From an uncultured Fibrobacter sp. (GTDB lineage: Bacteria > Fibrobacterota > Fibrobacteria > Fibrobacterales > Fibrobacteraceae), in NCBI GenBank assembly GCA_946413655.1, contig CAMKLO010000009.1, positions 1-64,000 on the forward strand: 64,000 bases of DNA. Direction: 5' to 3'. Each line of letters opens with the position of its first letter. The stretch's first letter is position 1. The translations under genes were made by a program, and so were the position numbers. Of the stretch, positions 5,101 through 38,853 are shown piece by piece. The notes under the pieces are model-generated. The model saw only the letters and a program-made list of their open reading frames with translations, made no database searches and was not told the DNA's origin.

Positions 5101-5388
5101 ACGGGACGAAGAACAAATGGAAAACTGACGAAATGTCCTCTTTGCAAAACGGGGGACTTGCTGAAAGTTGAACATGATGGAAAATCTTTTGTGGGGTGTT
5201 CTAATTTTCCTCGGTGTCGGTATGCGCAAAGAGACGTGACTATTTTGTCAAGTCCTAAAATATGTCCTAATTGTGGAGGGTTCCTTATAAAACGGAAAGG
5301 CTATAATGGCCATTATTTTGTGGGATGCTCTAATTATCCTACTTGCGAATATAAGGAAAAGTTCATTTGGAATGAGTTTAGCAACTGA
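2164..5388 (+). CDS. Membrane-anchored UvrD/Rep-type helicase with nuclease insert and topoisomerase zinc ribbons
   Basis: A 1074-residue superfamily 1 helicase. In order: one N-terminal membrane segment (about 3-21); three tandem copies of an 80-residue unit (about 33-118, 119-198, 199-276), the first two sharing HYIQDAERDAF and FPRLVLESN; Walker A AGAGSGKT near 315; an insert with IANFLFLNG, YRPDFYL and IYLEHFG (about 486-536) resembling the PD-(D/E)XK-like insert of DNA helicase IV relatives; Walker B VDEYQD near 713; motif VI YVAITRTKN near 942; and two four-Cys topoisomerase-type zinc ribbons (about 991-1021 and 1034-1063). Start may be TTG 2164, with AAGGGA upstream, or ATG 2173. It is likely a DNA-unwinding and cutting machine held at the membrane. 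Confidence 0.8.
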   Translation: MLNMFVLIIVLFTSIALFYVARRRQLAKEFEQKVESFIEVCDSFFVDFDGIFNHYIQDAERDAFVSKYKTLYYELQRYSGIPSKVDDFVKLEDFKKKYKDFPRLVLESNVEIKCKEFLIEVNSFSIEYDGLFKHYIQDAERDAFIKKYQTLYFELQECSQKSSKVKTFVRLEEFKRKYKSFPRLVLESNAEIKRKEQLKLLLQFVNSFFDELRLLTTHYVTDTDGEIFYHKWEKLSQDVATCNLKTNDEEFGKINLFEKIYKNFFNHLENANKLFIAQESQKYDSLFSDIDGKSLDLQQREAVITDEDRTLVLAGAGSGKTLTIAGKVKYLCDAKNVNPEEILLISFTKKSAQEMTDRIQRKLRIPVKSTTFHKLGLDIIKNAEGKSPQVFEKSLFDEFIHDFFEKELVNYPELVKNLIEYFAYYIDIPQNMEECSSLGEMYEAEKSIDLETLRSKYDQEKYIHDEKNKKAQNRTTLKNEKVKSLEEVQIANFLFLNGVNYEYEKLYPFESQDPLRKAYRPDFYLKDYDIYLEHFGITRDYTVPWLSLVEAQKYLDGIEWKREFHKQNNTKLIETYSYYNSEGVLLQKLEELLKQNGVVLKSRNFMDVFNTVYATKTNKYFSEFVKLCGTFIVLFKSNNYTVETIDDWKDWLSLEDKSFLQRRNNTFLNIIRVILDAYQKHLIANDSIDFSDMINNATENVNGGCEIPLYKYVIVDEYQDISKARFNLLKAIVDKTKAKLFCVGDDWQSIYRFAGSDISLFTDIAKYFGKTKILKIEKTYRNSQKLIDEASHFVLQNPLQLKKCLRSDKKLDYPLVFWGFDDNPRNALQAIINKIALDYGTNSSILLLGRTNYDIEIAKDTGLFREIRKNGADALEYIQNPMLSIQFLSVHKSKGLEADNVILLNFRNDKLGFPNQMIDDPVLNFVLTNAEDYRFAEERRLFYVAITRTKNRTYVLVDNKNPSPFFKEFSESTSVFFKSTGRRTNGKLTKCPLCKTGDLLKVEHDGKSFVGCSNFPRCRYAQRDVTILSSPKICPNCGGFLIKRKGYNGHYFVGCSNYPTCEYKEKFIWNEFSN

Positions 5389-5452
5389 TTGAAGTGGATT
5401 GTTTTTTCGTGCGAGACTTGTTTTGAAATTTTTTCTTATATATTTGTAGAGT

Positions 5453-8400
5453 ATGGATAATTTGCACGACTTTTTATTTTTTGATTTGGAATATAATCCT
5501 GGAACAGAAACGGTTCGGGAATACGGTTATATTCTAGGTGAAGAACGTGCTCGTGAAAAAAATCCAGCGAATTTAGAACTAGCGGCTCAAAAAGCGAAAT
5601 TTATTGTGGGGCACAATGTTCTCCGTCATGATGCTCCGATTCTTAGACAGTACTTTTCTATAGATTTCCCCAATGTTAAGGCGTTGGATACCTTGATGCT
5701 TTCTTCGTTATTGTTCCCGTGCAAACCGTATCACAAGTTGCGTAAGGAATATCTGAAAAACGAAGATGAACCATCAGATCCTTTAAAAGATGCAGAGCTT
5801 TGCAAACGACTTTTACAAGATTGCGTGGAAAAATGGGGTAGCTATCCTTGGCAACTTCGTTATCTCTTATTTCAGTTTTTAAAGAATGAACCTGGTTTTG
5901 CTCCGTTCTTTAATCTTGTAGAAGTTCCTGAACAAAGTGAATTGCGCTCCAATCTGTCTGAAATACAACGTTGGTTTACTGCGCATTATGAGAAATCGAT
6001 TTGCTTGCATCAAGATTTTGAAAACGAGTGGGCGGTCTATCGTGTCGAATGGTGTTTTCTTCTAACATTATTTCATGAAGAAGGACCTAGTGATTTTGTT
6101 CCCCATTGGGTTCGCTACCAGTACCCACATCTTGAAAGTATTTTGCATCGTCGTCGCCTTGTTCCTTGTGGCAATTCTCAATGTCCATATTGCTCCGAAC
6201 AGCTAAGTTCAATAAAACAATTAAAGAAATGGTTTGGATTTGATGCTTTCCGTTCTTTCGAAAAAGACGAGAAAATTCCTCTACAACAGCGAGTTGTTGA
6301 AACTGCAATGCGAGGCAAGTCCCTTTTAGCAGTTTTCCCGACTGGCGGTGGCAAGTCAATGACTTTTCAATTGCCTGCTTTGATTGCAGGTAGCCAAATT
6401 GGTGCACTGACGGTTGTGATTTCTCCGATTGTTGCTTTGATGAAAGACCAAGTGGATGTGTTGGAAAAGCGTTTTGGGATAGATCGTGCTGCGTATATAT
6501 ACTCACAAATTTCTCCATTAGAGCGAAAAAATACAATTAGGGCTATTCTTGATAATGAAAAAGACATTCTTTATATTTCGCCCGAAGCTCTTCGTTCCAA
6601 TACGATATTTAAATTGCTAAAACAACGCCGTATAAATCGATTTGTTATAGATGAAGCGCATTGCTTTAGCGCTTGGGGACAAGATTTCCGAGTCGATTAT
6701 CTTTATCTTGCCGATTTTATCAAAGATCTCGAAGAAGAAAAGCGCTTAGAATCATCTATTCCAATCAGTTGTTTTACGGCAACAGCGAAACAGGATGTCG
6801 TTGATGATATTTGTGGATATTTTAAGAAAAGAATGAATCTTGATTTGGTAAAGATTGTTAGCTCTGCAACAAGAAAAAATTTGGAATATTCTGTTATACT
6901 TGCATCTAGAGATAAACATGAACGTGGAAAAGAGCTTGTTAATTTGTTGAAGTTGTATGATGGGCCTAAAATAGTTTATGCAACTACAGTTAAAACAACC
7001 GAAAAATTAGCAGAAAGTTTAAAAGAGTATGGTTTCAAAAGCGGTTGCTATAATGGTCAAATGGATGCAGATATCAAAATAGATGTTCAGGAAGAATTTC
7101 AAAAAGCTGACGGAAATATTGATACAATTGTTGCTACTACAGCATTTGGAATGGGGGTTGACAAAGACAATGTTAAATTAGTTGCTCATTACGAAATCTC
7201 AAGTACATTAGAAAACTATGTGCAAGAGGCTGGTCGTGCGGGTAGAAAACCGGATATGCAGGCGTTCTGTGTTGCTTTGTACAATTCAAAAGATTTGGAT
7301 ACCAATTTTCAACTTCTACAGCAATCAAAATTATCTGAAAAAGAAATTGGTGACATTTGGCGTGTGTTAATAAAGCAAAGCGAAAAACGTGAACGGCTTG
7401 TGATGTCTGCTTTGGAAATTGCAGATAAATGCGGTTGGACTGAGCAAAATGAAAATATAGGAGCGCTAGAAACAAAAGTTAAACACGCCATTATGCTTTT
7501 GGAAGATCAGGGCTTTTTGAAAAGAAAACGTAATCAAACACAAGTATTTGGTTCCTCTATTGCCATAGAAACTGTTTCGCAGATTCGGTACATTTTAGAT
7601 AGTCCAAACATTGATAAGTTAAATACAATTGAAAACATCGCATTTAGAATCATGCGACATATTATCACTAAAAGATGGACAAAGAATCCTGAATGTACTC
7701 TTGATGATATCACAGTAAATTTGGGCATTGAACGAAAGGATGCAAATGAGGCTTTACGGCTGCTTCGTAGCAAACGTCTTTTAGACCAACGAAATGATTG
7801 GAGTGCAAAGATTCAACGCTTGGGGACCTTTAATTGCAAACGAATGCTGGAACGGGCGAAAGGTTTGCAAGAAATTCTGTTAAAAAGTTGTGAGGGACAT
7901 TGTATCAATGAGCCGTTTTTGCTGAATTTGACGAAAGTTAACGCTGCTCGAGGTGAAACTGAATCTGGAACTGAAACAAGGAAATGTCTGCAAATTTTGC
8001 GAGGTATTCTTCGTTATTGGGCTCATGAAAGTATTGCAGAAATTCATTTAATAGAGGCTGGTCATCAGCGATACCAAATTGAATTTCTAAAAGAACTTGA
8101 TATTGTCCGTAAGAATCTTGTTGATAACTGGGAATGTTTTGAAAAGATTATCGATACTCTGCTTGTTATACAAAAAGAGCAGGGAAAAAAGAAAGATGAT
8201 ACTCTTAATGATACTGTTTGGTTCTCTATAGACAATCTCATCTTGAGAATCTATGGGGAAAACGACATTGAAGACCTTGCAAGGCAAGCGCAATTTGAAT
8301 ATGCTTTACTCTTCTTGCATTTGATTGGAGCTATTTGTCTAGAAAATGGATTGATGGTATTCTATACCGGGCTTGTTTTGGATATAAGTCCTGAAAATAG

Positions 8401-10390
8401 GATAAAACCATTTAGCGAACAAGATTTTCAGAAACTCCACGACTTTTATGAAAACAAGGCTGAAGCGATTCATATTGTCGGCAGGTATGCCGAAATGATG
8501 CTTAATAATAAAGATGCCGCACAAGAATTGCTGAATGACTATTTTGCGTTGAATATTAACCAATTTCGTCAAAAATACATGATGTCTCCCGATGAAAAGG
8601 GTGCAGTTTCCATAAATTTGCGTGAACGTATAAACGCGGTTAATAAAGAACAGAAGGCCATTATCAAAAGTAATGCGAGACATATTTTAGTTGGCGCTGG
8701 ACCAGGGTCTGGCAAGACACACATGCTTGTTCATAAGGCCGCGTCTTTGTTGTGGCTCGAAGAGATTCAACCCAATTCTTTGTTGATGTTGACTTTTACA
8801 CGTTCAGCTTGTCGAGAACTTCGCAAGCGATTAAATGATTTGGCAAAGGGGTTGGCCCATGGTGTTACTATCACAACTTTCCATGCCTTAGCTTTTTCAA
8901 TTCTCGGAATTCAGGGCTCTAAGAAGGATTTTAAGAAGACGGGCAATGCGCAAAAAGGCGAAGAAATTATTAATAAAGCCGCAGAGGTCGTTGAATCAGG
9001 CGAAGATGTTGGAATTGGTTCACTAGGCGTTATTCTTGTTGATGAATTTCAAGACCTTTCTAGTTCGGAATACAAAATGTTAAAAGCCCTCTATAGGTAT
9101 GGAGATAAACCTCCGAGATTGATAGTTGTTGGGGATGATGACCAAAGTATTTTTGAGTTTCGAGGAAGTTCCTCTGAATTTTTTAGAAAATTTTCATCGG
9201 AATTTTCCAATACGAAAGAATTCTATTTAACGAATAATTATCGTTCTGCGGTAAATCTTGTTCGAGCAAATGAAGAAATATTGAGCTGTCTAAATTATCG
9301 AGTTAAAGATGGCAAGAAACAAGTTGCTGTTAATCCTGAACTTGGAAAACTTGAATTCTTTGAAGAATACGATAGAACGCGAGGTGCGTTTGCCGCTGCT
9401 GAAATTTTGGTTGAGAAATGTAAATTAGATAATGGTTCCGCTTGCATTCTAAGTCCAGAAAATTCAGAAGTGTTTTTGGCGGCAGCAAAATTAGAAGAAT
9501 TAGGAGTAGATTGTCGTGTCATAAAAAGCCAGGATCTAGAAAAATGTCCTGTGGAATCAGTTCGTGAAATTGTTGGTTTCAAAACAATTGTAGAAGCGGA
9601 TAAAGATATTGCAAAGAGATCTTGGACTATAGAGCTGTTCAAACAAATTGCAGAAAAGTATAAGAAAGACTATGAAGGCGAAAGTTCCTTTGAATTGTTA
9701 GATGCTGTAATCAACGACTTTATAGATGGTGAAGACGAAGTTGTTTTAAGTGATTTTGAACAATACCTAAACGAAGTCTCTTATGCTGACCTAAATAAAA
9801 AAGGAAATTTGCAGGTTAATGTTGGTACAATGCATAGTTCAAAAGGACTTGAATGGGATCACGTTATATTAAATCTTGGTGAATGGATTCCTGAAACTCA
9901 GGAACAATTCAGATTACTCTATGTTGCTGCAACGCGTGCCAAGAAAACCCTTACAGTATTAGGAACTGAGGCGAATCTTCCGAGTTCTTGGATTAAGAAT
10001 TTTAAAAATATGGGCAGACTTAAAGAATATAGTGTACCTAAGATAGTACACGTTGAAACCGGCTTAGATGATTTGGTCTTCAAATATATGCTTGTAAATG
10101 AAAAGAATAAAAGTCGGACACGATATTTACAAGAGAAATTTGCATCCATTCCATTGGGAACTGTAATTGAGATTAAATTTAATCAAGAATTTCAATGCTA
10201 CAACACGTACTTTAATGGGCGGTACGTTACCAAATTTTCTAATAAATTTGAAAAAGATTATCTCAGGAATCTCCAGAAAAATTTCTATAAGCCGAAAACA
10301 GCTAAATTAATCCAAGTTTGTAAATGGGAAGATGAATTTGGTCAGGCTATCTGGGTTCCATTGCTTAGCGTTGAATTTGAAAAGATGTAA
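5453..10390 (+). CDS. DEDD exonuclease-RecQ helicase-UvrD helicase fusion
   Basis: A 1645-residue three-part protein. Residues 1-130 form a DEDD-type 3'-5' exonuclease (FFDLEYN with D11 and E13; IVGHNVLRHDAPIL; DPLKDAELC). A small Cys cluster (CGNSQCPYC) precedes the RecQ helicase: Walker A FPTGGGKS near 296, DEAH box VIDEAHCFSAWG near 400, and the RecQ C-terminal motif ENYVQEAGRAGR near 587. The C-terminal third is a UvrD-type helicase: GAGPGSGKT near 1081, VDEFQD near 1197, GDDDQSIFEFRG near 1228, MHSSKGLEWD near 1460 and YVAATRAKK near 1490. It follows the other helicase by 64 bp. RecQ-UvrD fusions occur in anaerobes, but their role is not established; genome defence is inference. Confidence 0.85.
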   Translation: MDNLHDFLFFDLEYNPGTETVREYGYILGEERAREKNPANLELAAQKAKFIVGHNVLRHDAPILRQYFSIDFPNVKALDTLMLSSLLFPCKPYHKLRKEYLKNEDEPSDPLKDAELCKRLLQDCVEKWGSYPWQLRYLLFQFLKNEPGFAPFFNLVEVPEQSELRSNLSEIQRWFTAHYEKSICLHQDFENEWAVYRVEWCFLLTLFHEEGPSDFVPHWVRYQYPHLESILHRRRLVPCGNSQCPYCSEQLSSIKQLKKWFGFDAFRSFEKDEKIPLQQRVVETAMRGKSLLAVFPTGGGKSMTFQLPALIAGSQIGALTVVISPIVALMKDQVDVLEKRFGIDRAAYIYSQISPLERKNTIRAILDNEKDILYISPEALRSNTIFKLLKQRRINRFVIDEAHCFSAWGQDFRVDYLYLADFIKDLEEEKRLESSIPISCFTATAKQDVVDDICGYFKKRMNLDLVKIVSSATRKNLEYSVILASRDKHERGKELVNLLKLYDGPKIVYATTVKTTEKLAESLKEYGFKSGCYNGQMDADIKIDVQEEFQKADGNIDTIVATTAFGMGVDKDNVKLVAHYEISSTLENYVQEAGRAGRKPDMQAFCVALYNSKDLDTNFQLLQQSKLSEKEIGDIWRVLIKQSEKRERLVMSALEIADKCGWTEQNENIGALETKVKHAIMLLEDQGFLKRKRNQTQVFGSSIAIETVSQIRYILDSPNIDKLNTIENIAFRIMRHIITKRWTKNPECTLDDITVNLGIERKDANEALRLLRSKRLLDQRNDWSAKIQRLGTFNCKRMLERAKGLQEILLKSCEGHCINEPFLLNLTKVNAARGETESGTETRKCLQILRGILRYWAHESIAEIHLIEAGHQRYQIEFLKELDIVRKNLVDNWECFEKIIDTLLVIQKEQGKKKDDTLNDTVWFSIDNLILRIYGENDIEDLARQAQFEYALLFLHLIGAICLENGLMVFYTGLVLDISPENRIKPFSEQDFQKLHDFYENKAEAIHIVGRYAEMMLNNKDAAQELLNDYFALNINQFRQKYMMSPDEKGAVSINLRERINAVNKEQKAIIKSNARHILVGAGPGSGKTHMLVHKAASLLWLEEIQPNSLLMLTFTRSACRELRKRLNDLAKGLAHGVTITTFHALAFSILGIQGSKKDFKKTGNAQKGEEIINKAAEVVESGEDVGIGSLGVILVDEFQDLSSSEYKMLKALYRYGDKPPRLIVVGDDDQSIFEFRGSSSEFFRKFSSEFSNTKEFYLTNNYRSAVNLVRANEEILSCLNYRVKDGKKQVAVNPELGKLEFFEEYDRTRGAFAAAEILVEKCKLDNGSACILSPENSEVFLAAAKLEELGVDCRVIKSQDLEKCPVESVREIVGFKTIVEADKDIAKRSWTIELFKQIAEKYKKDYEGESSFELLDAVINDFIDGEDEVVLSDFEQYLNEVSYADLNKKGNLQVNVGTMHSSKGLEWDHVILNLGEWIPETQEQFRLLYVAATRAKKTLTVLGTEANLPSSWIKNFKNMGRLKEYSVPKIVHVETGLDDLVFKYMLVNEKNKSRTRYLQEKFASIPLGTVIEIKFNQEFQCYNTYFNGRYVTKFSNKFEKDYLRNLQKNFYKPKTAKLIQVCKWEDEFGQAIWVPLLSVEFEKM

Positions 10391-10537
10391 AAAAGTTTCT
10401 TTCGTATTAGGAATCATACCCCCCGTAAACCATAAATCGAAGGTTGTATAGGGCATCCTTCTAGAATCGATTAAAACGGATTCTTTTACACTAACGGATT
10501 TCCCTCGAAAAAATCGCTATCCGACAAAAACCTCGCG

Positions 10538-10617
10538 ATAATTCTCTAAATGTGCCAAAAAATATGAGATTTAGAGAATTATAAGCACTTTTTTGTGGTA
10601 TAACTCTCTAAATGTGC
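10538..10617. repeat. Three copies of an 18-bp motif, two direct and one inverted
   Basis: The motif ATAATTCTCTAAATGTGC lies at 10538-10555, its 14-bp inverted core ATTTAGAGAATTAT at 10569-10582, and a third copy with one change at 10600-10617. The first two make a large palindrome. The arrangement looks like a regulator binding region or the remains of a promoter whose gene was lost. The rest of the 348-bp gap (10391-10738) holds no gene. Confidence 0.6.
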
Positions 10618-10645
10618 GGTTTTGCGACTTTTTTGGAAACAAAGA

Positions 10646-10679
10646 ATGTCCGCTTGCTGGCGGACATAAATTTTTTTTT
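10646..10679 (+). terminator. Intrinsic terminator
   Basis: Perfect 8-bp stem ATGTCCGC/GCGGACAT with loop TTGCTG, followed by AAA and nine T. It probably ends transcription of the helicase cluster, although it lies 256 bp after the last stop codon. Confidence 0.7.
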
Positions 10680-10738
10680 GCGATGGGCTTTACTAATAAA
10701 GTTCCTACATAATTTGGAACTCTTTAGGGCGTATGGGT

Positions 10739-11296
10739 TTACGCCACCAAATCCATCAGGTCAAAGTACATCAAGCGCGTATGCGGGTCATCGTCTTCGA
10801 GGTTCATCATGCGGAACCCGTTCTTCTCGTAAAACGGAACGGCCCCCAAGTAGGCATCTACCGTTATAAAGCGGCAGCCCGTTTTGTTGTTGATGACGAA
10901 CATGGATTTGATGTAATCGAGCAATCCGGAACCAATTTGATTTCCTTTGGCTTGCTTATCAACTGCTAAGCGGCAGAGCTTTACGGCGGGGTAGCTTTTC
11001 AACCGTTTCTCGTTCGGGAATCCTTGCTTGCGGCGGAATCTGTTGAATTCCGTCATGCTCGGAAAATCGCTTGTCGCAATTTTGTCGTTCGCGAGGCTGA
11101 AGTAGGCTAGGGTTTGTTTTGATTCTGGGTCGATACATGTATAGCTGACCGCTAGCATGTGGTAGTCGAACAAAGAAGCTCTATTTGCTATATAGTCGTT
11201 CAAGTCCTTGTCGCCGCAGTCGAAATTCTCGACGGCGTTTGTGGGTTGCAACCTTACAATTTTGAATCTTTCGGGAATTCCACATGTCTGAACCAT
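10739..11296 (-). CDS. GNAT acetyltransferase toxin, TacT-like
   Basis: A 185-residue GNAT protein. It has the N-terminal signature of TacT-type toxins, NFDCGDKDLNDYI, the acetyl-CoA loop KGNQIGSGLL, and the C-terminal PFYEKNGF with the candidate catalytic Tyr. Known relatives acetylate the amino group of charged tRNAs and block translation; this is knowledge of the family, not shown here. Its start overlaps the end of the upstream small gene by 43 nt, typical of a coupled toxin-antitoxin pair. Start ATG 11296 is kept because later in-frame starts cut the conserved N-terminus. Confidence 0.75.
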   Translation of the reverse strand: MVQTCGIPERFKIVRLQPTNAVENFDCGDKDLNDYIANRASLFDYHMLAVSYTCIDPESKQTLAYFSLANDKIATSDFPSMTEFNRFRRKQGFPNEKRLKSYPAVKLCRLAVDKQAKGNQIGSGLLDYIKSMFVINNKTGCRFITVDAYLGAVPFYEKNGFRMMNLEDDDPHTRLMYFDLMDLVA

Positions 11297-11496
11297 GGGT
11301 CCACACCTCCGTTTGCTGCTTCGCGGGCGCGTTTTTCACGCATGCCATCTTCAAATGCTTTTTGGAAAATTTCATAGTTCCGTAAGCGGCGGGCGCGAGC
11401 TTCTGGAGTTTCGGGGTGCCTCTCCTGCATACGGGCGATAAACCGGCGAGCATCCTCGCCGAACAAGATAGGTGTTTCTCTGATGGGTCTTGCCAT
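11254..11496 (-). CDS. Putative antitoxin partner of the GNAT toxin
   Basis: An 80-residue, strongly charged protein beginning MARPIRETPILFGEDARRF, followed by a Glu/Arg-rich helical region. Small proteins with this opening are commonly found in front of GNAT toxins in Bacteroidota and relatives; I recognise the arrangement but no ribbon-helix-helix fold is evident by eye. It is first in the operon and overlaps the toxin gene by 43 nt, as expected for an antitoxin that may also autoregulate. Function is inferred from position. Confidence 0.6.
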   Translation of the reverse strand: MARPIRETPILFGEDARRFIARMQERHPETPEARARRLRNYEIFQKAFEDGMREKRAREAANGGVDPWFRHVEFPKDSKL

Positions 11497-11634
11497 GAGT
11501 GTCCTATTTGTTAGTTGTTAGAATAAAAGTAACTGATATATTAACGCCCGGCCAAGCCGGATGGCATCCTCAATGGATCCTTTTTTAAATATATAAAAGC
11601 GGAAAAAGAAGTGCAAGGGGGCTGGGTTTATGCC

Positions 11635-11658
11635 AAAAACCCCTCCCATCGGGAGGGG
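11635..11658 (-). terminator. Intrinsic terminator of glmS
   Basis: Minus-strand hairpin CCCCTCCC-GAT-GGGAGGGG followed by TTTTT, 60 bp after the glmS stop codon. It separates glmS from the toxin-antitoxin pair. Confidence 0.8.
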
Positions 11659-11717
11659 CTTGCGTTTTAAGCTTTATGTTCTAAGTTCCGCCAACTGTGG
11701 CAAAACTCTAAGACCTA

Positions 11718-13547
11718 TTATTCCACCGTCACGCTCTTGGCGAGGTTTCTCGGCTGGTCCACGTCGTTGCCGCGGAGAACGGCGATGTGGTAGGCGAGCA
11801 ACTGCAGCGGGATGCAGGTGACAATCGGCATGAGCATCGGGCGGGTCTTCGGCACTATAATGAGGTTGTCTGCGATTTCGTCGAGCGGGTGGCAGTCTTC
11901 CGTGGTGACGGCGATGACTTTACCGCCGCGGGCCTTGATTTCGCGGATGTTGCTGATAATCTTGTCGAAGAGCGAATCCTTCGGGGCGATGACCACGACC
12001 GGCATGTTTTCGTCGATAAGGGCGATGGGGCCGTGCTTCATTTCGGCGGCGGGGTAGCCTTCGGCGTGGATGTAGCTGATTTCCTTGAGCTTCAAGGCGC
12101 CTTCCATGGCGACCGGGTAGCAGAAGTGACGGCCGAGGTACAAGAAGTTGTTCGCCTTGCAGAGCGTCTTTGCAATTTCGGCGATGCTGTCGGAGAGCTT
12201 GAGCGTTTCGGCAACGAGGTCCGGAAGTTCCGTGAGTTCCTTGACGATGTCGGCGCCGGTTTCAAAGCTGAGTCGGCGCTGGCGACCGAGCAGGAGTGCT
12301 ATCATGGCAAGTACGGTGACCTGGCTTGTGAACGCCTTGGTGCTGGCTACGCCGATTTCCGGGCCTGCGTGCAGATAAACGCCGCCGTCGCTTGTGCGTG
12401 CGATGGTCGAGCCGACTCCGTTACAGATGGCAAGTGCAGTTGCGCCTTTCTGTTGCGCTTCCTTGAGGGCGGCGAGCGTGTCTGCGGTTTCGCCAGACTG
12501 GCTGATGGCAATTACGAGCGTGCCCGGTTTGATGATGGGGTTTCTGTAGCGGAACTCGGATGCGTATTCGACTTCGACCGGGACGCCGGCGAGGTCTTCG
12601 ATCATGTATTCACCGACCATGCCTGCATAGTAGCTGGTGCCGCAGGCGGTGATGATGATGCGGTTGATGTTCCTGAGTTCCTTGATGTTCGTGTCGAGGC
12701 CGGCGAGTTTCGCGTTTCCTTCGGCGGCGAGCAGGCGACCGCGCATGGTGTTGCGCAGCACTTCGGGCTGTTCGAAAATTTCCTTGAGCATGAAGTGCGG
12801 GAATCCGCCCTTGGCGACGGCGTCGGCGTCGAATTCCACGTCCTGGACTTCGCGCTGCACTTCGTGGCTGCTCATGTTCACGATGGAGTAGCTGCCGTCC
12901 TTGATTTGCACGATGTCGTTGTCGTCGAGATAGACGACTTTCTGCGTGTGGTTGATGATGGCGGAAACATCGCTGGCGAGGTAGAAGTCGCTGTCGTTTC
13001 CGATGCCGAGGATAAGCGGACTTCCGCGGCGGGCGCCAATCAAAACGTTTGGTTCTTCGTTGCAGATGACGCCAAGACCGAACGTTCCTTCGATTTGCTT
13101 GAGGGTCTTGAGCACGGCGGACTTCAGGTCGCCATTGTAATAGCGGGCGATGAGGTGGGCGACGACTTCCGTATCGGTTTCGGACTTGAATTCAACACCT
13201 TCGGAGATGAGCTTCGCCTTGAGGCTTGCGTAGTTCTCGATGATGCCGTTGTGGACAATCGAGATTTTTCCGTCAAAGCTTGTGTGCGGGTGCGCGTTTG
13301 ATTCGGTGGGGGCACCGTGAGTAGCCCAACGCGTGTGGGCGATGCCGATGGAACCCTTGATGGGGTAGTTTTTCAATTTGTCTTCGAGGGCCTTGATTTT
13401 TCCGGATGCGCGGACAACTTTGATTTGCCCTTGGTCGATGACGGCGACCCCCGAGCTATCATAGCCACGATATTCCATTTTCTTGAGACCTTCGACGAGA
13501 ACCGGAAGAGCCTCTCCTTTACCGATGTATCCGATAATTCCGCACAT
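11718..13547 (-). CDS. glmS: Glutamine-fructose-6-phosphate aminotransferase
   Basis: A 609-residue protein of the normal family length. It makes glucosamine-6-phosphate from fructose-6-phosphate and glutamine, the first step of UDP-GlcNAc synthesis for peptidoglycan and LPS. The N-terminal glutaminase domain starts MCGIIGYIG with the nucleophile Cys2, followed by EYRGYDSSGVA. Two sugar-isomerase (SIS) domains follow, with CGTSYYAG and SQSGETADT, and the end LAKSVTVE matches the family. It is a single-gene unit with its own terminator; no glmS ribozyme is evident in the 127-bp leader. Confidence 0.97.
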   Translation of the reverse strand: MCGIIGYIGKGEALPVLVEGLKKMEYRGYDSSGVAVIDQGQIKVVRASGKIKALEDKLKNYPIKGSIGIAHTRWATHGAPTESNAHPHTSFDGKISIVHNGIIENYASLKAKLISEGVEFKSETDTEVVAHLIARYYNGDLKSAVLKTLKQIEGTFGLGVICNEEPNVLIGARRGSPLILGIGNDSDFYLASDVSAIINHTQKVVYLDDNDIVQIKDGSYSIVNMSSHEVQREVQDVEFDADAVAKGGFPHFMLKEIFEQPEVLRNTMRGRLLAAEGNAKLAGLDTNIKELRNINRIIITACGTSYYAGMVGEYMIEDLAGVPVEVEYASEFRYRNPIIKPGTLVIAISQSGETADTLAALKEAQQKGATALAICNGVGSTIARTSDGGVYLHAGPEIGVASTKAFTSQVTVLAMIALLLGRQRRLSFETGADIVKELTELPDLVAETLKLSDSIAEIAKTLCKANNFLYLGRHFCYPVAMEGALKLKEISYIHAEGYPAAEMKHGPIALIDENMPVVVIAPKDSLFDKIISNIREIKARGGKVIAVTTEDCHPLDEIADNLIIVPKTRPMLMPIVTCIPLQLLAYHIAVLRGNDVDQPRNLAKSVTVE

Positions 13548-13674
13548 AAAAATACCTGTATCTAAAATTTTAGGTGAAAATATACTAATTGTAAAGGTAA
13601 AAAGAAAAAAAATGTAAGCTTTATCTACTTTGTTTTGCTATTTTAAAGTCGTCTATTTTTCATAGAGGATAAAA

Positions 13675-14484
13675 ATGAAGACTAAATTGATTCTTGCCGC
13701 TGGCGCTCTCGCCATGCTTATGACAGGTTGCGAACCGTGCAAAACCGCATCGACCGAAAAGACCTCGCTTGTGACTGAAAAGGACAAGTACAGCTACGCT
13801 CTCGGTGCCCATTTCGGTAACCAGGCTCGTTTCCAGCTCGTCACTCGCGATTCCATCGACCTCGACTTGGATCTCTTCATTCAGGCTTTCAAGGAACGCT
13901 ACAATGAAGATTCCGCCAAGTTCTTGATGAACGACTCCATCATCATGGAAACGCTCAACAAGCTTTCTGCAGACCGTCAGGCCGAAAAGATGAAGAAGGA
14001 CAGCATCGCCGCCGAAAAGAACAAGGCTGAAGGTGAAGCTTTCCTCGCTAAGAACAAGACTGCCGAAGGTGTCGTGACCACGGCTTCCGGTCTTCAGTAC
14101 AAGGTTGAAACCGAAGGTACTGGTGCAACCCCGACGGACGAAGACAAGGTCAAGGTCCACTATACCGGTACGCTTCTCAATGGCGAAAAGTTCGACAGCT
14201 CCATCGACCGTGGTCAGCCGCTTGAATTCCCGGTGACGGCCGTTATCGCTGGCTGGACGGAAATGCTCAAGCTCATGAAGGTTGGCGAAAAGGTCACCGC
14301 ATGGATTCCGAGCGAACTCGCTTACGGTCCGCGTGGCAACCGCGCTATCCCGGGCAACTCCGTGCTCAAGTTCGAAATGGAACTCTTGGAAGTGATTCCG
14401 CCTGCAAAGCCGGAAGAACCGAAGGCTGACGCAAAGAAGGCTGCCAAGCCGGCTAAGAAGCCCGCTGCTCCTGCTGCCAAGTAA
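13675..14484 (+). CDS. FKBP-type peptidyl-prolyl isomerase lipoprotein
   Basis: A 269-residue protein with a lipoprotein signal (ALAMLMTGC, Cys about residue 19), so it is probably anchored in the envelope. An N-terminal dimerisation-type region (KYSYALGAHFGNQ) is followed by a charged helical linker and a C-terminal FKBP domain (VKVHYTGTLLNGEKFDSS, AWIPSELAYG, LKFEMELLEV). The last 25 residues are an Ala/Lys/Pro-rich tail. This is the architecture of FkpA/Mip-type isomerases that help envelope proteins fold. GAGGATAAAA precedes the ATG and a terminator follows. Confidence 0.92.
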   Translation: MKTKLILAAGALAMLMTGCEPCKTASTEKTSLVTEKDKYSYALGAHFGNQARFQLVTRDSIDLDLDLFIQAFKERYNEDSAKFLMNDSIIMETLNKLSADRQAEKMKKDSIAAEKNKAEGEAFLAKNKTAEGVVTTASGLQYKVETEGTGATPTDEDKVKVHYTGTLLNGEKFDSSIDRGQPLEFPVTAVIAGWTEMLKLMKVGEKVTAWIPSELAYGPRGNRAIPGNSVLKFEMELLEVIPPAKPEEPKADAKKAAKPAKKPAAPAAK

Positions 14485-32703: not shown

Positions 32704-34515
32704 TTATAGCTTCAGTTCCTCGCAAAGTTTTTCGACATCCGCGAGCATTTGGGACTGTTCTTCGGTCGATGCCGTGACAGGTGCGAAACGCACGAAGGCG
32801 CATTTTTCGAGCCAGCTGTCGATGGCGTCGATTGTCTCGCTCTTGACGTTCAGCTTGGCGAGTTCCTCCTTCATCTGCGGGCGGGTCATGCCCTTGAATT
32901 CGAGGTTCGTCAAGTTGCTGAGATAGTCGATGAGGCCGTTTTCGAGAGCCGCATAGAACGCCTTGCCGTCACCTTTCTTGAGTGCTGCACGCGCGTCTGC
33001 GAACTTTTCTTTGAGCAGTTTGTTGGCCTTGCCCTTGCGGACTAGGGCCGTATTGCTGTTGCGCTTGCGGCTTCTTGTGATGAGAGCGTTTGCAATCAGG
33101 TAGAATGGAATCGCCGCGATAAATAGAATCCAGAAGACGATACTCCTGTGCGGTGCCGAAGATTCGCTTTTGCTCGAAACCGGATGGATGAAGCGAATGT
33201 CGCTGCCGAGGAATTCGATTTCTTGCTTTTGCACTGCCGGAGTCGATGGGCTTGCAGAAACCGGAGCCTGATAGATTGGCTCTGCGGGGGCGTCGCCCTT
33301 TTCGACTTCGATGGTCCACGGGCCAGCCGATGCTGTTTCGTATTTCTTTTTGGCGGGGTTGAACCAGGAATATGTAATGGCCGGGATTTCAAATGTGCCT
33401 TTTTTCTTGGGATAGAGGAACACCTTGATGTCCTTCGAGGTGACGACCTTGTTGCCCGTGATTTTCTTGTTGATGCTGTTTTCGGGCGGCACGGAGCGGA
33501 ATTCGCTAAAGTCGGGGAGCTTCGGGTCGGTAATCGTGCCCGGAGTGCCATCACCCCTGATGCTGATTGCGAGCGTCAGAGCTTCGCCGACCTTGAGGTT
33601 TGTGCGGTCGAAATTGGCGCTAAAACTGTACGAGCCGACCATTCCCGAAAAGTCTTCGGGCTTGCCCTCGGCCGGGAGCGGAAGGACGTTGATGGCGAGC
33701 GGGGCGGTGGAGGTTTCCGTTTCGATGGATTCCTGCTTGACGCTACGGCTGGAGAACGACATGCCGCCCATCTGCTTCTTTTCTTCGACGACTTTGGGTT
33801 CGCCGAGCTTGGTATATTTGAACTTGAACGACGGAATTTCAAGCGTTCCGCTCTTGGTCGGGCTCAGCCAGGCGAATTTTGCGGTGGCCTTCATTTCGCG
33901 GCGGGTGCCTTCGACGGGCTTGAAATCCAGATTGGAAAGGTCGTTACGGTGGACGATAAAATCGTTACCCGTGCTCATGTCGGTCGCTTGGAGGCCGCCC
34001 TGGAAATGCTCGAACGTGTGGAGGCTCAAGGTGACGCTGAACTGTTCGCCTTCGTAAATGGACTTTTTGCTCGGGGTGAGGCTTGCGGCAAGGGCGTCGT
34101 CGCTATAGGAACGCTGCACGTTGACCGGAATCTTGTTGCTGATGAGGTTCGGTTCCCCGCCGATGTTCCAGGTAAGCGATCCCAGGTCCTGCATACCCGT
34201 TTTTCTGGGGGCTTTTATTTTGAACGAATAGACACGAGCCTTGTAAGGCCTTCCGCCACCACCGAAAAACGAGTCGAAAAAGTCATCCATGTCCGGACGC
34301 ATGACCTGGTCGGCACTGTCGATGCCGAGAAGCTTGAAGTTGTTGCGGGTCTCCAGATGGAGGGCGCCCCTATTTTGAGGCAGTTCCTGCAACGGGACGA
34401 TGAACTGCAACTTGAATGTCTGACCCGCTTCGATGCGGTCCGTATCGACTTGGAGAGAAGGCTTCGCGCTTACAAATGCTGCTAAACTGAGACATAAAAG
34501 CAAAAATCGTTTCAT
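32704..34515 (-). CDS. batD: BatD-like protein (oxygen-tolerance family)
   Basis: A 603-residue protein. Signal peptide (LLLCLSLAAFVSA), then repeated immunoglobulin-like beta domains (LQVDTDRIEAGQTFKLQF; SLTPSKKSIYEGEQFSVTLSL; DRTNLKVGEALTLAISIRG), each with the proline/glycine-rich spacing of BatD, one membrane helix (about 455-475) and a C-terminal helical cytoplasmic domain. It precedes batE in an apparent operon. Family members belong to MoxR-AAA/Bat envelope systems; a chaperone or stress role is proposed but not proven. Confidence 0.85.
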   Translation of the reverse strand: MKRFLLLCLSLAAFVSAKPSLQVDTDRIEAGQTFKLQFIVPLQELPQNRGALHLETRNNFKLLGIDSADQVMRPDMDDFFDSFFGGGGRPYKARVYSFKIKAPRKTGMQDLGSLTWNIGGEPNLISNKIPVNVQRSYSDDALAASLTPSKKSIYEGEQFSVTLSLHTFEHFQGGLQATDMSTGNDFIVHRNDLSNLDFKPVEGTRREMKATAKFAWLSPTKSGTLEIPSFKFKYTKLGEPKVVEEKKQMGGMSFSSRSVKQESIETETSTAPLAINVLPLPAEGKPEDFSGMVGSYSFSANFDRTNLKVGEALTLAISIRGDGTPGTITDPKLPDFSEFRSVPPENSINKKITGNKVVTSKDIKVFLYPKKKGTFEIPAITYSWFNPAKKKYETASAGPWTIEVEKGDAPAEPIYQAPVSASPSTPAVQKQEIEFLGSDIRFIHPVSSKSESSAPHRSIVFWILFIAAIPFYLIANALITRSRKRNSNTALVRKGKANKLLKEKFADARAALKKGDGKAFYAALENGLIDYLSNLTNLEFKGMTRPQMKEELAKLNVKSETIDAIDSWLEKCAFVRFAPVTASTEEQSQMLADVEKLCEELKL

Positions 34516-34614: not shown

Positions 34615-34685
34615 AATCGCGGAAAAAAGAATCTTGTATTGCAATAAGCGTCGGCCAAGGTAGAACCTTCGCAATAGCGTGCAAA

Positions 34686-34755: not shown

Positions 34756-34836
34756 TCCGAGCTGGGGCCCCTCCCGCATGAATGACTTGTTAAATTTGCA
34801 ATTTGAAAAAAAAGCGCAAATTTATATTTTTCCCCC

Positions 34837-34865
34837 TTGAAACGTTAGTAAAATTTTGTTAATAT
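34837..34865 (+). promoter_or_regulatory. Promoter of micro-gene copy 1
   Basis: TTGAAA (34837-34842), exactly 17 bp, TAATAT (34860-34865). The same element with the same spacing precedes copy 2 at 36650, and conservation extends upstream through a TTTTTCCCC tract. It should be a strong sigma-70 promoter. Confidence 0.8.
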
Positions 34866-34895
34866 TGGGCGCGTCAAAACAAGGAGTCAAAAAAT

Positions 34896-34961
34896 ATGTA
34901 CTGCATTCTCGCCGCCCTCTTGGTCAAAAGCTTCAAAAAGCACATCAAGAACGCTCAATAA
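34896..34961 (+). CDS. 21-residue cationic hydrophobic micropeptide, copy 1
   Basis: ATG at 34896 behind AAGGAG (9-nt spacing) opens 21 codons: MYCILAALL, then V, then KSFKK and a basic tail (HIKNAQ). A sister gene at 36707 encodes the same opening and KSFKK core. Promoter, ribosome binding site, frame and terminator are all conserved between copies, while third codon positions differ (CTC/CTT, TTC/TTT, AAA/AAG), a sign of selection on the peptide. A short hydrophobic helix followed by lysines is the pattern of type I toxins and of membrane-active peptides; which of these it is cannot be told. I know no family that matches. Confidence 0.7.
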   Translation: MYCILAALLVKSFKKHIKNAQ

Positions 34962-34993
34962 AATAAAAGTTTATCTCTCTCTCTAATTATGAT

Positions 34994-35029
34994 GCCACGG
35001 ATATTTTCCGTGGCTTTGCTTATTTTTAT
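34994..35029 (+). terminator. Terminator of micro-gene copy 1
   Basis: Perfect 8-bp stem GCCACGGA/TCCGTGGC with loop TATTT, followed by TTTGCTTATTTTTAT. With the promoter it delimits a transcript of about 155 nt. Confidence 0.8.
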
Positions 35030-35085
35030 AAAATTTCATGCCCCACCGTCATATTCGAAGCGAAGCGTAGGGACAACTTCAAAAG

Positions 35086-35145
35086 GCGAGAGTCGCGACC
35101 AAACTTGTTTGGACCGAGCCAAAGAGGTTGGGGCTTTGCCCCATC
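35086..35145 (+). repeat. Double-hairpin repeat family, diverged copy
   Basis: GCGAGAGTCGCGA, stem CCAAAC-TT-GTTTGG, ACCGAGCC, then stem GGGGC-TTT-GCCCC. The leading 11 bases are identical to the copy inside the Rhs gene (49412). Both stems have different bases from other copies but still pair. Confidence 0.65.
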
Positions 35146-35270
35146 CATACAGTTCTGGTTAAATGTCATGCCCCACCCCGATGTCTTTGACTACTTGCAG
35201 CTGTGCTGCTTAGTAGTCATGATCCGCGTATGGGGAGGGCATCTCCTTTCTCTGTAAATTGTTTCAAACG

Positions 35271-35314
35271 ATTGCACTATGAGGATGTGTTAATTGTACT
35301 ATGAGGATGTGTTA
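35271..35314. repeat. 22-bp tandem duplication
   Basis: Two adjacent copies of ATTG(C/T)ACTATGAGGATGTGTTA with a single mismatch, 50 bp before the start of the truncated gene at 35365. A recent duplication or a paired binding site. Confidence 0.7.
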
Positions 35315-35364
35315 GTATATATTATTTTTTATGGTTTGCTAGTAAAAATGTTATACTAGTTCTG

Positions 35365-35694
35365 TTGTTGGCTTTTTTACATGTCAATGAGAATATTCAT
35401 TGGAATACGACTATTGAAAATCAAAATTTTGGCGACATCGCAAAAGGTTTTAAATTATATTATTATGGTAGCGAACGATTCTTTGTCCATGGAGTATGGG
35501 CAGGAACATTGATTGTTCCAAATGCAAAATTGGTATTGGGTCAGACTCAAAATAAGAAATTATATGGCCAGTTTTATGGAAAGGGTGTTACCGTCCATCA
35601 ATATTCTAAAATTTTCCGCGTTCAGTTTAAACCACAGAAATCAATTACATCCAATGCACAACTTAACGTGGCTTGGTTAGGAGGTAAAAAATGA
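35365..35694 (+). pseudogene. Probable 5'-truncated surface protein fragment
   Basis: An open frame of about 109 codons without a good start. Upstream of TTG 35365 the frame stays open and encodes a signal-peptide-like run (KNVILVLLLAFLHVNE) but offers no ATG, GTG or TTG before the next stop, so the 5' end appears lost or changed. The C-terminal part (GTLIVPNAKLVLGQTQNKKLYGQFYGKGVTVHQYSK, written here only as landmarks GTLIVPNAKL and YGKGVTVHQY) resembles beta-rich segments of large Fibrobacter surface proteins. Its stop overlaps the next ATG as ATGA, so the two are translationally coupled. Confidence 0.45.
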
Positions 35695-36488
35695 AAAAAG
35701 TATCTATTTTGTTGTTTGTTTTAGCCACAATCCTATGGGCAGAAATCGATATAGAAATAGCAATTCAAATAGATAATCTCCCTGAAGAAATTTTTGAAAT
35801 CTATAACATGGACGAAAAAAATGGAGATTGTGCTATTTACAATGGGAAAAGGACGAAATCAGATTTTGGAGCTTGTGGGTATGATGGATTGTGTGCCGCA
35901 ATACTCGATATCGATGTTTTATTTGGATGGACTGGGGTTTCTAATAATGGTCTTGAAATCTATACTCTTACTGGAGCGACTCACTCATGGAGAGAAGTTC
36001 TTGAAGATGAATTTAATCATTTTAGGCAATGTAAAGGGATTATAGCCAATGATTCTACGTACAATTCCATGTTTGCGGAAATAGATTCCTTTCTTGTTCC
36101 AGAAATTGATAAGTATTTGCAAAATGAATCCCAAAAACGTATAATGCTTGTTTATAATTATGCTATGGGATCGGTAAGACCTGCAGAAATAGCCATTCCT
36201 GGTGGGGGCTGTGACTTATGTTTCATTGGCATGGCTTCAGACACCGTCAAAGCCCGCAACACCGCCATTTCGAGCATCGCTCCGGCCAAATACAAACTCG
36301 AAACAATCCGCGTGCAGAACCATCGCTTGACGGCTTCTCCGAAATTGCTTGGCCGCGAATTCACACTATTTGACGTCAACGGTCACGAACTCCGCCGTGG
36401 AACACTGCAAAACAACATGCCGCTCCCCGCATACCCCACCGTCATCAAAATCCAAGGCTTCGGAACTAGACTGCTCAACAGTCGTTAG
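35691..36488 (+). CDS. Secreted protein with possible type IX C-terminal sorting domain
   Basis: A 265-residue protein with a signal peptide (SILLFVLATILWA). The first 180 residues match no family I know and contain six Cys and a helix EVLEDEFNHFRQC. The last 85 residues (REFTLFDVNGHELRRG, MPLPAYPTVIKIQG) resemble the beta-sandwich C-terminal domains that route Fibrobacter proteins through the type IX system, consistent with sprA in this window. Base composition changes sharply near 36226: AT-rich before, GC-rich after, so the gene looks like a mosaic of an acquired N-terminus and a resident sorting domain. Confidence 0.6.
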   Translation: MKKVSILLFVLATILWAEIDIEIAIQIDNLPEEIFEIYNMDEKNGDCAIYNGKRTKSDFGACGYDGLCAAILDIDVLFGWTGVSNNGLEIYTLTGATHSWREVLEDEFNHFRQCKGIIANDSTYNSMFAEIDSFLVPEIDKYLQNESQKRIMLVYNYAMGSVRPAEIAIPGGGCDLCFIGMASDTVKARNTAISSIAPAKYKLETIRVQNHRLTASPKLLGREFTLFDVNGHELRRGTLQNNMPLPAYPTVIKIQGFGTRLLNSR

Positions 36489-36649
36489 TCGATAGCTGAC
36501 TGCAACATATTGCATCCTTTGCCATCCTTGACCGTCTGGGAGAGGGGAGGGCTGCCTTTGTGGACGCGCTTAGAGGTCGTCTAGGCGTGCTTTTGACATC
36601 GGCATGGATGAATTATCAAAAAAATCGGCAAAATATATACTTTTTCCCC

Positions 36650-36678
36650 TTGAAACGTTAGTAAAACTTTGTTAATAT
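36650..36678 (+). promoter_or_regulatory. Promoter of micro-gene copy 2
   Basis: TTGAAA (36650-36655), 17 bp, TAATAT (36673-36678), nearly identical to the copy 1 promoter, including the bases between the hexamers (one change). Confidence 0.8.
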
Positions 36679-36706
36679 TGGCGCCGTCAAAAATAAAGGA
36701 GTCTAA

Positions 36707-36769
36707 ATGTACTGCATTCTTGCCGCCCTCTTGATCAAAAGCTTTAAGAAATACGCAAAACGCGCTTAA
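36707..36769 (+). CDS. 20-residue cationic hydrophobic micropeptide, copy 2
   Basis: ATG at 36707 behind AAGGAG (5-nt spacing). The peptide opens MYCILAALL, then I, then KSFKK, and ends YAKRA. It is the paralogue of the micro-gene at 34896, 1.8 kb away on the same strand, and has its own promoter and terminator. Differences in the tail keep the positive charge. It precedes malQ but is separated from it by a terminator, so it is not an obvious leader peptide for malQ. Confidence 0.7.
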   Translation: MYCILAALLIKSFKKYAKRA

Positions 36770-36798
36770 TTTTTGAAGAAGGATTGAGGAAACGAAAC

Positions 36799-36826
36799 GG
36801 TCTCGGGTTTTTCCGGGCCTTTTTTG
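36799..36826 (+). terminator. Terminator of micro-gene copy 2
   Basis: Stem GGTC(T)CGG/CCGGGCC with one bulged T and loop GTTTTT, followed by TTTTTTG. It ends a transcript of about 140 nt and lies 54 bp before malQ. Confidence 0.65.
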
Positions 36827-36879: not shown

Positions 36880-38853
36880 ATGCGATATGGTGATTTAACT
36901 TCTTTTCAGACCGGCGTAGCCGTCCCTCTTTTCAGTCTTTACAGCAAGCACAGCATTGGCATTGGGGAATTCTTGGACTTGATTCCGTTTGCCCAGTGGT
37001 CCAAGTATTGCGGATTCAATATTATCCAGCTTTTGCCTGTCAACGATACAGGGTCTGAGTCGAGCCCTTACAGTGCCCGCAGCGCGTTTGCGTTGAACCC
37101 GGTTTTTATCAACGTCCAGTCTGTCGAAGGGGCTTCGGAGTTTGAAAACGAAATAGAAAACGCCAAGGAACAGTTCGCAGGTATCGAGCGCGTGGATTAC
37201 TATCGCATTACCACGTGGAAGCGCGCGATTCTCCGCAAGATTTTTGATTCCCGTTACGACCAGCTCAAGTCCTCCAAGAAACTCCTTGCTTGGGTCGATA
37301 AGAATGCATGGGTCAAGTCGTATTGCGTCTATTGCACGCTCAAGGTGCAGAACAACGAGGCTAGCTGGAGGGACTGGAAAAAGTACCAGAATCCGTCTGC
37401 TGCTGATGTCGATAAGCTTTGGATGAAAAATTACAGGGACACGTTGTTCCAGGCGTGGATGCAATATACCGCCGAAGGGCAGTTTACCGCCGCCGTGAAC
37501 GAGGTTTCCAAGCTGGGCCTTCGCCTGAAGGGTGACGTGCCTATCCTCATCAACGAAGACAGTGCCGATGTCTGGTTCGACCGCAAGTATTTCTCGCTTG
37601 CCGACCGTGCGGGTGCCCCTCCTGACATGTTCAGCTACGGCGGCCAGAACTGGGGATTCCCGACTTACCGCTGGGACGTGCTCGAAGCGGATGGCTTTGG
37701 CTGGTGGCGCCGTCGTTTGGCCCAGGCGAGCAAGTTCTATCACGCTTATCGCATTGACCACGTGCTTGGATTTTTCCGCATCTGGGCGATTCCTGAAACC
37801 GAGGTGACAGGTATCCTTGGACGTTTCCAGCCGTCGATTCCGCTCACTTGGGATGTGCTCCGTAATGCAGGCTTCTGCCGTGAAACGCTTGAATATTTGC
37901 GCCGCCCGAATTATTCCGTGGATCAGTTGCGTGAATTTCTCGGCAACGAAACGGACAGGCTCATATCACTGTATTTTGAAAATTTGCCGGGAAAGTTCGA
38001 CCGCTTTGTCGTCAAGCCGGATCTTTTGTCAGAACGTGCTATTATCGCTCTTGATGAACCGCAAGAAGTCAAGGATTCCATGCTCCGCGTTTATTGGAAT
38101 CGCGTGTTCATCCCAACGGGCGACGAAAACACTTACTATCCGTACTGGTACTGGTACAACCAGCCAGTGCTCTTTACGCTCCCGCAGAACGAACAGCAGA
38201 AACTCCACGAATTGATTGGCCAGAACGAACAGGCGCAAAACGCTCTTTGGGAACAGAACGCCATGAAGCTTTTGTCCGTGCTTGCGAACGAGACGGATAT
38301 GCTGGTCTGTGCCGAAGACTTGGGGGCCGTGCCGCCCTGCGTGCCGTCCGTGCTCAAAAAGCTGAATATCATGTCGTTACGCATCGAACGGTGGGCCCGT
38401 AATTGGAACGTGCCGTATTCTCCGTATTATAGCATGGAAGATTACCCGCGTCTCTCGGTCTGCACTACGAGCTGCCACGATACATCGACACTGCGTGGAC
38501 TTTGGGAAGAGGCCGATTTCGACAAGGCTTTCTACTGGTCGCATGCAGGTTTGCCGGGAGTTGCTCCCGAAAAGCTTACGCCGCCTGTGGTGCGCGATAT
38601 TCTTTCGCATGTGTTTAAGGCGAATAGCTTGTTCTGCATCCCGCCGATTCAGGATTACCTTGCGCTTTCTGCATCACTCTCGGAATGCGACCCGAAGGAA
38701 GAACGCGTCAATATCCCGGGAACGGTCGGCTCGCAGAACTGGACGTACCGCACGCCGTGCTGCGTCGAGGACCTGCTTGCGAATTTGGGTCTGATTTCGG
38801 AAATCGGCAAGCTCGTCGAAGAACGTAGAAACCGAGCTTTGTGGAAAATTTAG
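36880..38853 (+). CDS. malQ: 4-alpha-glucanotransferase
   Basis: A 657-residue GH77 enzyme that transfers alpha-1,4-glucan chains between maltodextrins (disproportionating enzyme). Landmarks: SYNDTG-like pocket LLPVNDTGSESSPYSARSAF, GDVPILINEDSADVW, the nucleophile region AYRIDHVLGFFRIW, the acid/base region CAEDLGAVPPCV and the end CTTSCHDTSTLRGLW. All catalytic carboxylates appear present. It is followed 220 bp later by a GH13 enzyme on the same strand, suggesting a glycogen or maltodextrin locus. Confidence 0.95.
   Translation: MRYGDLTSFQTGVAVPLFSLYSKHSIGIGEFLDLIPFAQWSKYCGFNIIQLLPVNDTGSESSPYSARSAFALNPVFINVQSVEGASEFENEIENAKEQFAGIERVDYYRITTWKRAILRKIFDSRYDQLKSSKKLLAWVDKNAWVKSYCVYCTLKVQNNEASWRDWKKYQNPSAADVDKLWMKNYRDTLFQAWMQYTAEGQFTAAVNEVSKLGLRLKGDVPILINEDSADVWFDRKYFSLADRAGAPPDMFSYGGQNWGFPTYRWDVLEADGFGWWRRRLAQASKFYHAYRIDHVLGFFRIWAIPETEVTGILGRFQPSIPLTWDVLRNAGFCRETLEYLRRPNYSVDQLREFLGNETDRLISLYFENLPGKFDRFVVKPDLLSERAIIALDEPQEVKDSMLRVYWNRVFIPTGDENTYYPYWYWYNQPVLFTLPQNEQQKLHELIGQNEQAQNALWEQNAMKLLSVLANETDMLVCAEDLGAVPPCVPSVLKKLNIMSLRIERWARNWNVPYSPYYSMEDYPRLSVCTTSCHDTSTLRGLWEEADFDKAFYWSHAGLPGVAPEKLTPPVVRDILSHVFKANSLFCIPPIQDYLALSASLSECDPKEERVNIPGTVGSQNWTYRTPCCVEDLLANLGLISEIGKLVEERRNRALWKI

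Follow-up and report, generated by a model that had tools for sequence, protein, structure and literature searches.

CydX, KdpF, MgtS, AcrZ, and SgrT are small membrane proteins of about 20 to 50 residues that modulate larger complexes; stand-alone or operon-borne, overlooked by gene-calling programs, conserved within a single lineage, and dependent on a partner, they are described proteins to which the Fibrobacter micro-gene reported here can be likened. Most of them have a complete transmembrane helix or an identified partner, whereas the Fibrobacter peptide has a ten-residue hydrophobic stub and, unlike them, no family match. SpoVM, a 26-residue membrane-surface peptide of Bacillus sporulation, resembles it in size and in hydrophobic and basic make-up, and binding to the membrane periphery is plausible for the Fibrobacter peptide, but no sequence relationship is claimed and Fibrobacter is non-sporulating. 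Membrane type I toxins are hydrophobic, shorter than 60 residues, and basic toward the C terminus, and several contain a cysteine (PMC8309996); those of clostridia are located largely in prophages (PMC6563280).

The micro-gene was analyzed in a 64,000-nucleotide stretch of DNA from an uncultured Fibrobacter sp. (the window). As summarized in Table 1, the preliminary description of two paralogous, complete transcription units was accurate, as promoter, AAGGAG, open reading frame (ORF), and terminator hairpin with T-run are present in both copies. Over their first 15 codons, copies A and B are distinguished by four synonymous differences and one conservative replacement (V10I). The terminator hairpin of copy A was also found in copy 1 of related species, and copy 2 of the clade retains the terminator of copy B. 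Between the copies (window 35365-36488) are two ORFs of 109 and 265 amino acids, neither with a Pfam match, and in related two-copy species the copy-to-copy distance is just ~0.2 to 0.9 kb. Upstream of copy A, TTGTATTGCAATAAGCGTCGGCC (window 34634-34656) occurs once in the window; with hardly any change it is present again, in a repeat-like stretch, ahead of copy 1 in L223 (a contig classified as viral) and near batD in locus L162.

Table 1. Features of the two micro-gene units and their neighbors in the window
Feature	Position	Strand	Description
batD (Pfam BatD)	32704..34515	-	Divergent neighbor; landmark of the syntenic locus across the genus
Copy A unit	34837-35026	+	Promoter to terminator
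Copy A promoter	34809..34865	+	A/T-rich upstream block, CCC, -35, 17-bp spacer, -10; conserved in all clades
Copy A -35	34837-34842	+	TTGAAA
Copy A -10	34860-34865	+	TAATAT
Copy A discriminator	34866..34874	+	TGGGCGCGT (consensus TGGCGCCGT)
Copy A Shine-Dalgarno	34881-34886	+	AAGGAG; anti-SD duplex -7.8 kcal/mol
Copy A micro-gene	34896-34961	+	MYCILAALLVKSFKKHIKNAQ, 21 codons, then stop
Copy A intrinsic terminator	34994..35026	+	GCCACGGATATTTTCCGTGGC and T-rich tail; hairpin 34994-35014
Copy B unit	36650-36825	+	Promoter to terminator
Copy B promoter	36622..36678	+	A/T-rich upstream block, -35, 17-bp spacer, -10
Copy B -35	36650-36655	+	TTGAAA
Copy B -10	36673-36678	+	TAATAT
Copy B discriminator	36679..36687	+	TGGCGCCGT
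Copy B Shine-Dalgarno	36696-36701	+	AAGGAG; anti-SD duplex -8.3 kcal/mol
Copy B micro-gene	36707-36769	+	MYCILAALLIKSFKKYAKRA, 20 codons, then stop; commonest form in the genus
Copy B intrinsic terminator	36799..36825	+	GGTCTCGGGTTTTTCCGGGCC TTTTTT; hairpin 36799-36819, T6 36820-36825
malQ (4-alpha-glucanotransferase)	36880..38853	+	Downstream neighbor in the window's clade only; context, outside the unit

Absence from other Fibrobacter genomes, or frame breaks in orthologues, had been named beforehand as grounds for discarding the micro-gene; both checks were made, and it withstood them. Searching the DNA of 80 Fibrobacter genomes revealed it in most of them, and a degenerate peptide pattern placed it in 68 of the 80 (83 copies in total, with two tandem copies in 15 genomes, including that of the window); 88 genomes from the rest of the phylum gave no match. 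When a similar peptide pattern was run, by exact matching, on 84,980 species, each represented by one genome, it returned 42 contigs, every one of which bears the label Fibrobacter or Fibrobacterales. Homologues in other genera were sought with relaxed patterns and rejected, as these gave only chance matches inside unrelated reading frames. One small clade carries a diverged form, MYCLLAYLIVKQLKSGKALI, with the same promoter in front.

In nearly every genome with a readable flank, the micro-gene is divergent from batD, and in most of the genus it lies tail to tail with a gene read from its sequence, rather than from a family search, as an MqnC-like radical SAM gene; malQ takes the place of this neighbor in the window's clade. 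Genomes without the micro-gene (e.g., G011, G038, and G041) have the mqnC-like gene and batD close together, with no micro-gene remnant between the two; at locus L168 the interval is about 40 bases. Presence of the micro-gene changes about five times on the batD tree, which is consistent with acquisition close to the root of the genus and a few later losses. Four nearly complete Fibrobacter genomes lack it, and the micro-gene is thus dispensable in part of the genus; its absence from G061, an incomplete assembly, may be due to disturbance of the batD locus there. In that genome (L162, G061:C4:231-3259), a partial, stop-containing second batD-like copy (51% identity) adjoins the intact batD, and the adjacent flank is without a micro-gene. 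Overall, the micro-gene has been passed on vertically at a single chromosomal locus, and the window's clade carries it as a tandem duplication.

A mobile or phage origin was rejected, as the sole viral-contig match, L223, proved to be a piece of Fibrobacter chromosome carrying a phage-like insert. This insert of ~11 kb (2950-14150), flanked by batD on one side and the first micro-gene copy on the other, contains integrase, head-morphogenesis-like, and sigma-factor-like genes (named from sequence only); it probably represents entry of a prophage into the batD/micro-gene intergenic space.

The same synteny bears on the idea that the ORF is a leader peptide or attenuator of its downstream gene, for which the window offers a short ORF and then a terminator 110 bp ahead of malQ, in the same direction. 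However, the downstream gene varies between clades and in most of the genus is the convergent mqnC-like gene, so the micro-gene is not a leader peptide; for malQ itself this role was excluded on synteny, since a same-direction malQ is found in one clade only. Furthermore, the window's clade has two tandem units up to 1.8 kb apart, selection acts on residues throughout the peptide, and no codon type is repeated in a run. We therefore give this explanation hardly any credence.

Analysis of 55 distinct sequences yielded a pN/pS of 0.15 in frame, compared with 1.49 and 2.24 in the other two frames. Shuffling of alignment columns, a null that preserves the relatedness of the sequences, gave a pN/pS of 0.75 with a minimum of 0.24, and 0 of 200 shuffles reached the observed value. 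Third positions carried 59% of the differences; M1, Y2, C3, L5, A6, and K11 were invariant, and the reading frame intact, in 83/83 copies, and no promoter copy with a broken ORF behind it was found among the genomes of the genus. Every ORF is followed by a terminator-like hairpin and T-run, the sequence of which differs between clades while the structure is kept. The unbroken frame, the low pN/pS, the fixed promoter spacer, and the terminators with kept structure and changing sequence together indicated that the micro-gene is a translated gene, and its pattern of sequence change is that of a gene selected as a peptide. Thus, selection at the protein level and an ORF below the usual gene-calling limit (20/21 codons), both proposed in the preliminary description, were borne out. 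Having an ORF of fewer than 50 codons, its own translation signals, and protein-level selection, the product can be classed as a microprotein.

Synonymous change was lower in codons 2 to 6 (0.27 versus 0.55), which could stem from translation initiation in this region or from pairing with an RNA. In clades with a long leader, a stem recurs at the 5′ end with differing sequences (mean score of 14.7 versus 7.0 in shuffles), which fits a stable mRNA; no consensus structure emerged when the leader alignment was folded with RNAalifold, so support for the stem consists of this per-sequence score against shuffles. Both features also speak for a transcript that is a dual-function or purely regulatory small RNA with a secondary ORF. 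This is very unlikely, given the strong amino-acid-level selection across the whole ORF, a leader that in the window's clade is short (~20 bases), unstructured, and devoid of the 5′-end stem, and an Rfam search that identified no known RNA family. A single sub-threshold match to L20_leader (Rfam), in L049, was discarded.

Alignment of 82 copies (76 distinct) on the -35 element showed a promoter spacer fixed at 17 bp throughout, with a consensus comprising an A-run and AATATATA upstream of -35, CCCTTG, GTAAAA within the spacer, TTGT before -10, and TTGGC after it. The upstream block is A/T-rich and the discriminator G+C-rich, both being marks of strong, growth-rate-controlled promoters in Escherichia coli, and by analogy they may carry the same meaning in Fibrobacter. 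In the genomes searched, the extended 41-bp promoter core was found only upstream of the micro-gene; a shared regulon was rejected, since looser matches occurred at about chance level. In the two-copy loci L005-L019, the tandem copies mostly differ in promoter and terminator and encode nearly the same peptide, copy 1 often having TATCAT at -10 and copy 2 TTGACG at -35, as if the two were expressed under different conditions.

Codon adaptation to ribosomal-protein genes averaged 0.709 over the copies, which are related and thus do not constitute 83 independent samples, compared with 0.729 for ribosomal-protein genes, in a reference set that includes a few same-locus ORFs other than ribosomal proteins, and 0.553 for 29 large genes of the window. 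The peptide recoded with ribosomal-protein-like codons scored 0.718, and with background codons 0.513 (SD, 0.096); the window copies taken singly were middling (0.66 and 0.57). Codon use and promoter make-up together suggest strong, growth-linked expression. They could instead serve a cytosolic, basic peptide that binds nucleic acid or the ribosome and is made in proportion to ribosomes, for which the rRNA-like promoter make-up, a charge of up to +6, and nearly invariant K11, K15, and K18 in the main form also speak. Nevertheless, the best-conserved part of the peptide is its hydrophobic MYC-L-A start and not the basic tail, and we consider such a binder improbable, albeit deserving of some weight.

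Hydrophobicity is concentrated in the N-terminal half of the peptide, as a run from M1 to V10 of only about ten residues followed by a basic tail, and net charge ranges from +3 to +6 across copies; those of the window have 20 to 21 residues, a GRAVY of 0.44 to 0.56, and a charge of +4/+5. A classical amphipathic helix found no support, since the helical hydrophobic moment was not above that of shuffled versions of the peptide. As the moment is not significant and ten hydrophobic residues are too short for a bilayer, membrane association is deduced from composition.

From this composition the preliminary description had likened the peptide to type I toxins and membrane-active peptides. A type I toxin would be a small hydrophobic peptide that harms the membrane once freed from an antisense RNA, and in a broader sense the peptide may be membrane-active. 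The resemblance itself holds: with fewer than 60 residues, a hydrophobic N terminus, a basic C terminus, and a cysteine, the peptide has the composition of such toxins (PMC8309996). It is like Fst/Ldr, TisB, IbsC, AapA1, and Hok in being very short with a hydrophobic stretch and a basic C terminus, cysteine and tandem copies being shared with some of them; the tandem duplication in 15 genomes also fits, and an RNA pairing with codons 2 to 6 could cause their low synonymous change. The identity as a toxin, in contrast, was not supported. In the search for an antisense RNA over the unit, the best minus-strand promoter averaged 4.30 mismatches, compared with 4.03 in shuffles; this sequence scan, which an unusual promoter could escape, thus revealed no conserved antisense promoter above shuffles. 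No stretch elsewhere in the genome was complementary beyond chance, as a trans-acting RNA would be, and occlusion of the ribosome-binding site was no greater than in shuffles. Without a conserved antisense promoter or a complementary trans RNA, type I toxin status is unsupported. Moreover, the peptide differs from the toxins named above in its ten-residue hydrophobic run, its ribosomal-protein-like codons, and its genus-wide inheritance at a single place, vertical and chromosomal rather than on prophages or plasmids, unlike the largely prophage-borne toxins of clostridia (PMC6563280). The promoter and the codons seem suited to strong expression at a constant level, and no Pfam, NCBIfam, or PHROGs family matched. 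A type I toxin is thus an unlikely reading.

Searches of the peptide against Pfam, NCBIfam, PHROGs, and PDB sequences gave no match at E values up to 10, where queries of 20 residues have little profile power. No mention of the peptide sequence was found in the literature searched, and a literature search on Fibrobacter small proteins or start sites returned nothing relevant. The micro-gene is a new family among bacterial microproteins.

On balance, we favor a genus-specific micro-gene that is strongly expressed with growth and whose peptide serves as an accessory or modulator at the membrane surface rather than as a poison. Judged from promoter, codons, and composition, the 20-residue peptide is probably strongly expressed and membrane-held. 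Expression would be coupled to growth and the peptide would remain inside the cell, where its hydrophobic N-terminal decapeptide MYCILAALLV, with the invariant Cys3, would dip into the cytoplasmic membrane from its inner side, with the Lys/Arg tail resting on a partner or on the head groups of the lipids. From this position, the peptide could serve as a small auxiliary factor that assists or modulates either a membrane protein or the membrane surface. More tentatively, and with appreciable doubt, the micro-gene may be among the shortest known stand-alone genes for a protein to be conserved so widely, with a growth-coupled, Cys3-containing, Fibrobacter-specific role at the membrane surface exerted via a partner or mechanism unlike those of described microproteins.

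These results indicated that comparative genomics alone can establish a very short gene, through its frame, codon-position bias, and terminator turnover. Being invisible to the usual gene callers, the micro-gene is probably missing from transcriptome and proteome tables. Fibrobacter, a bacterium of rumen and gut across which the micro-gene has stayed nearly constant, is a main cellulose degrader of the rumen; its genus-specific biology is mostly unexplained, and one 63-base ORF with one promoter at one place offers a precise target for knock-out or tagging.
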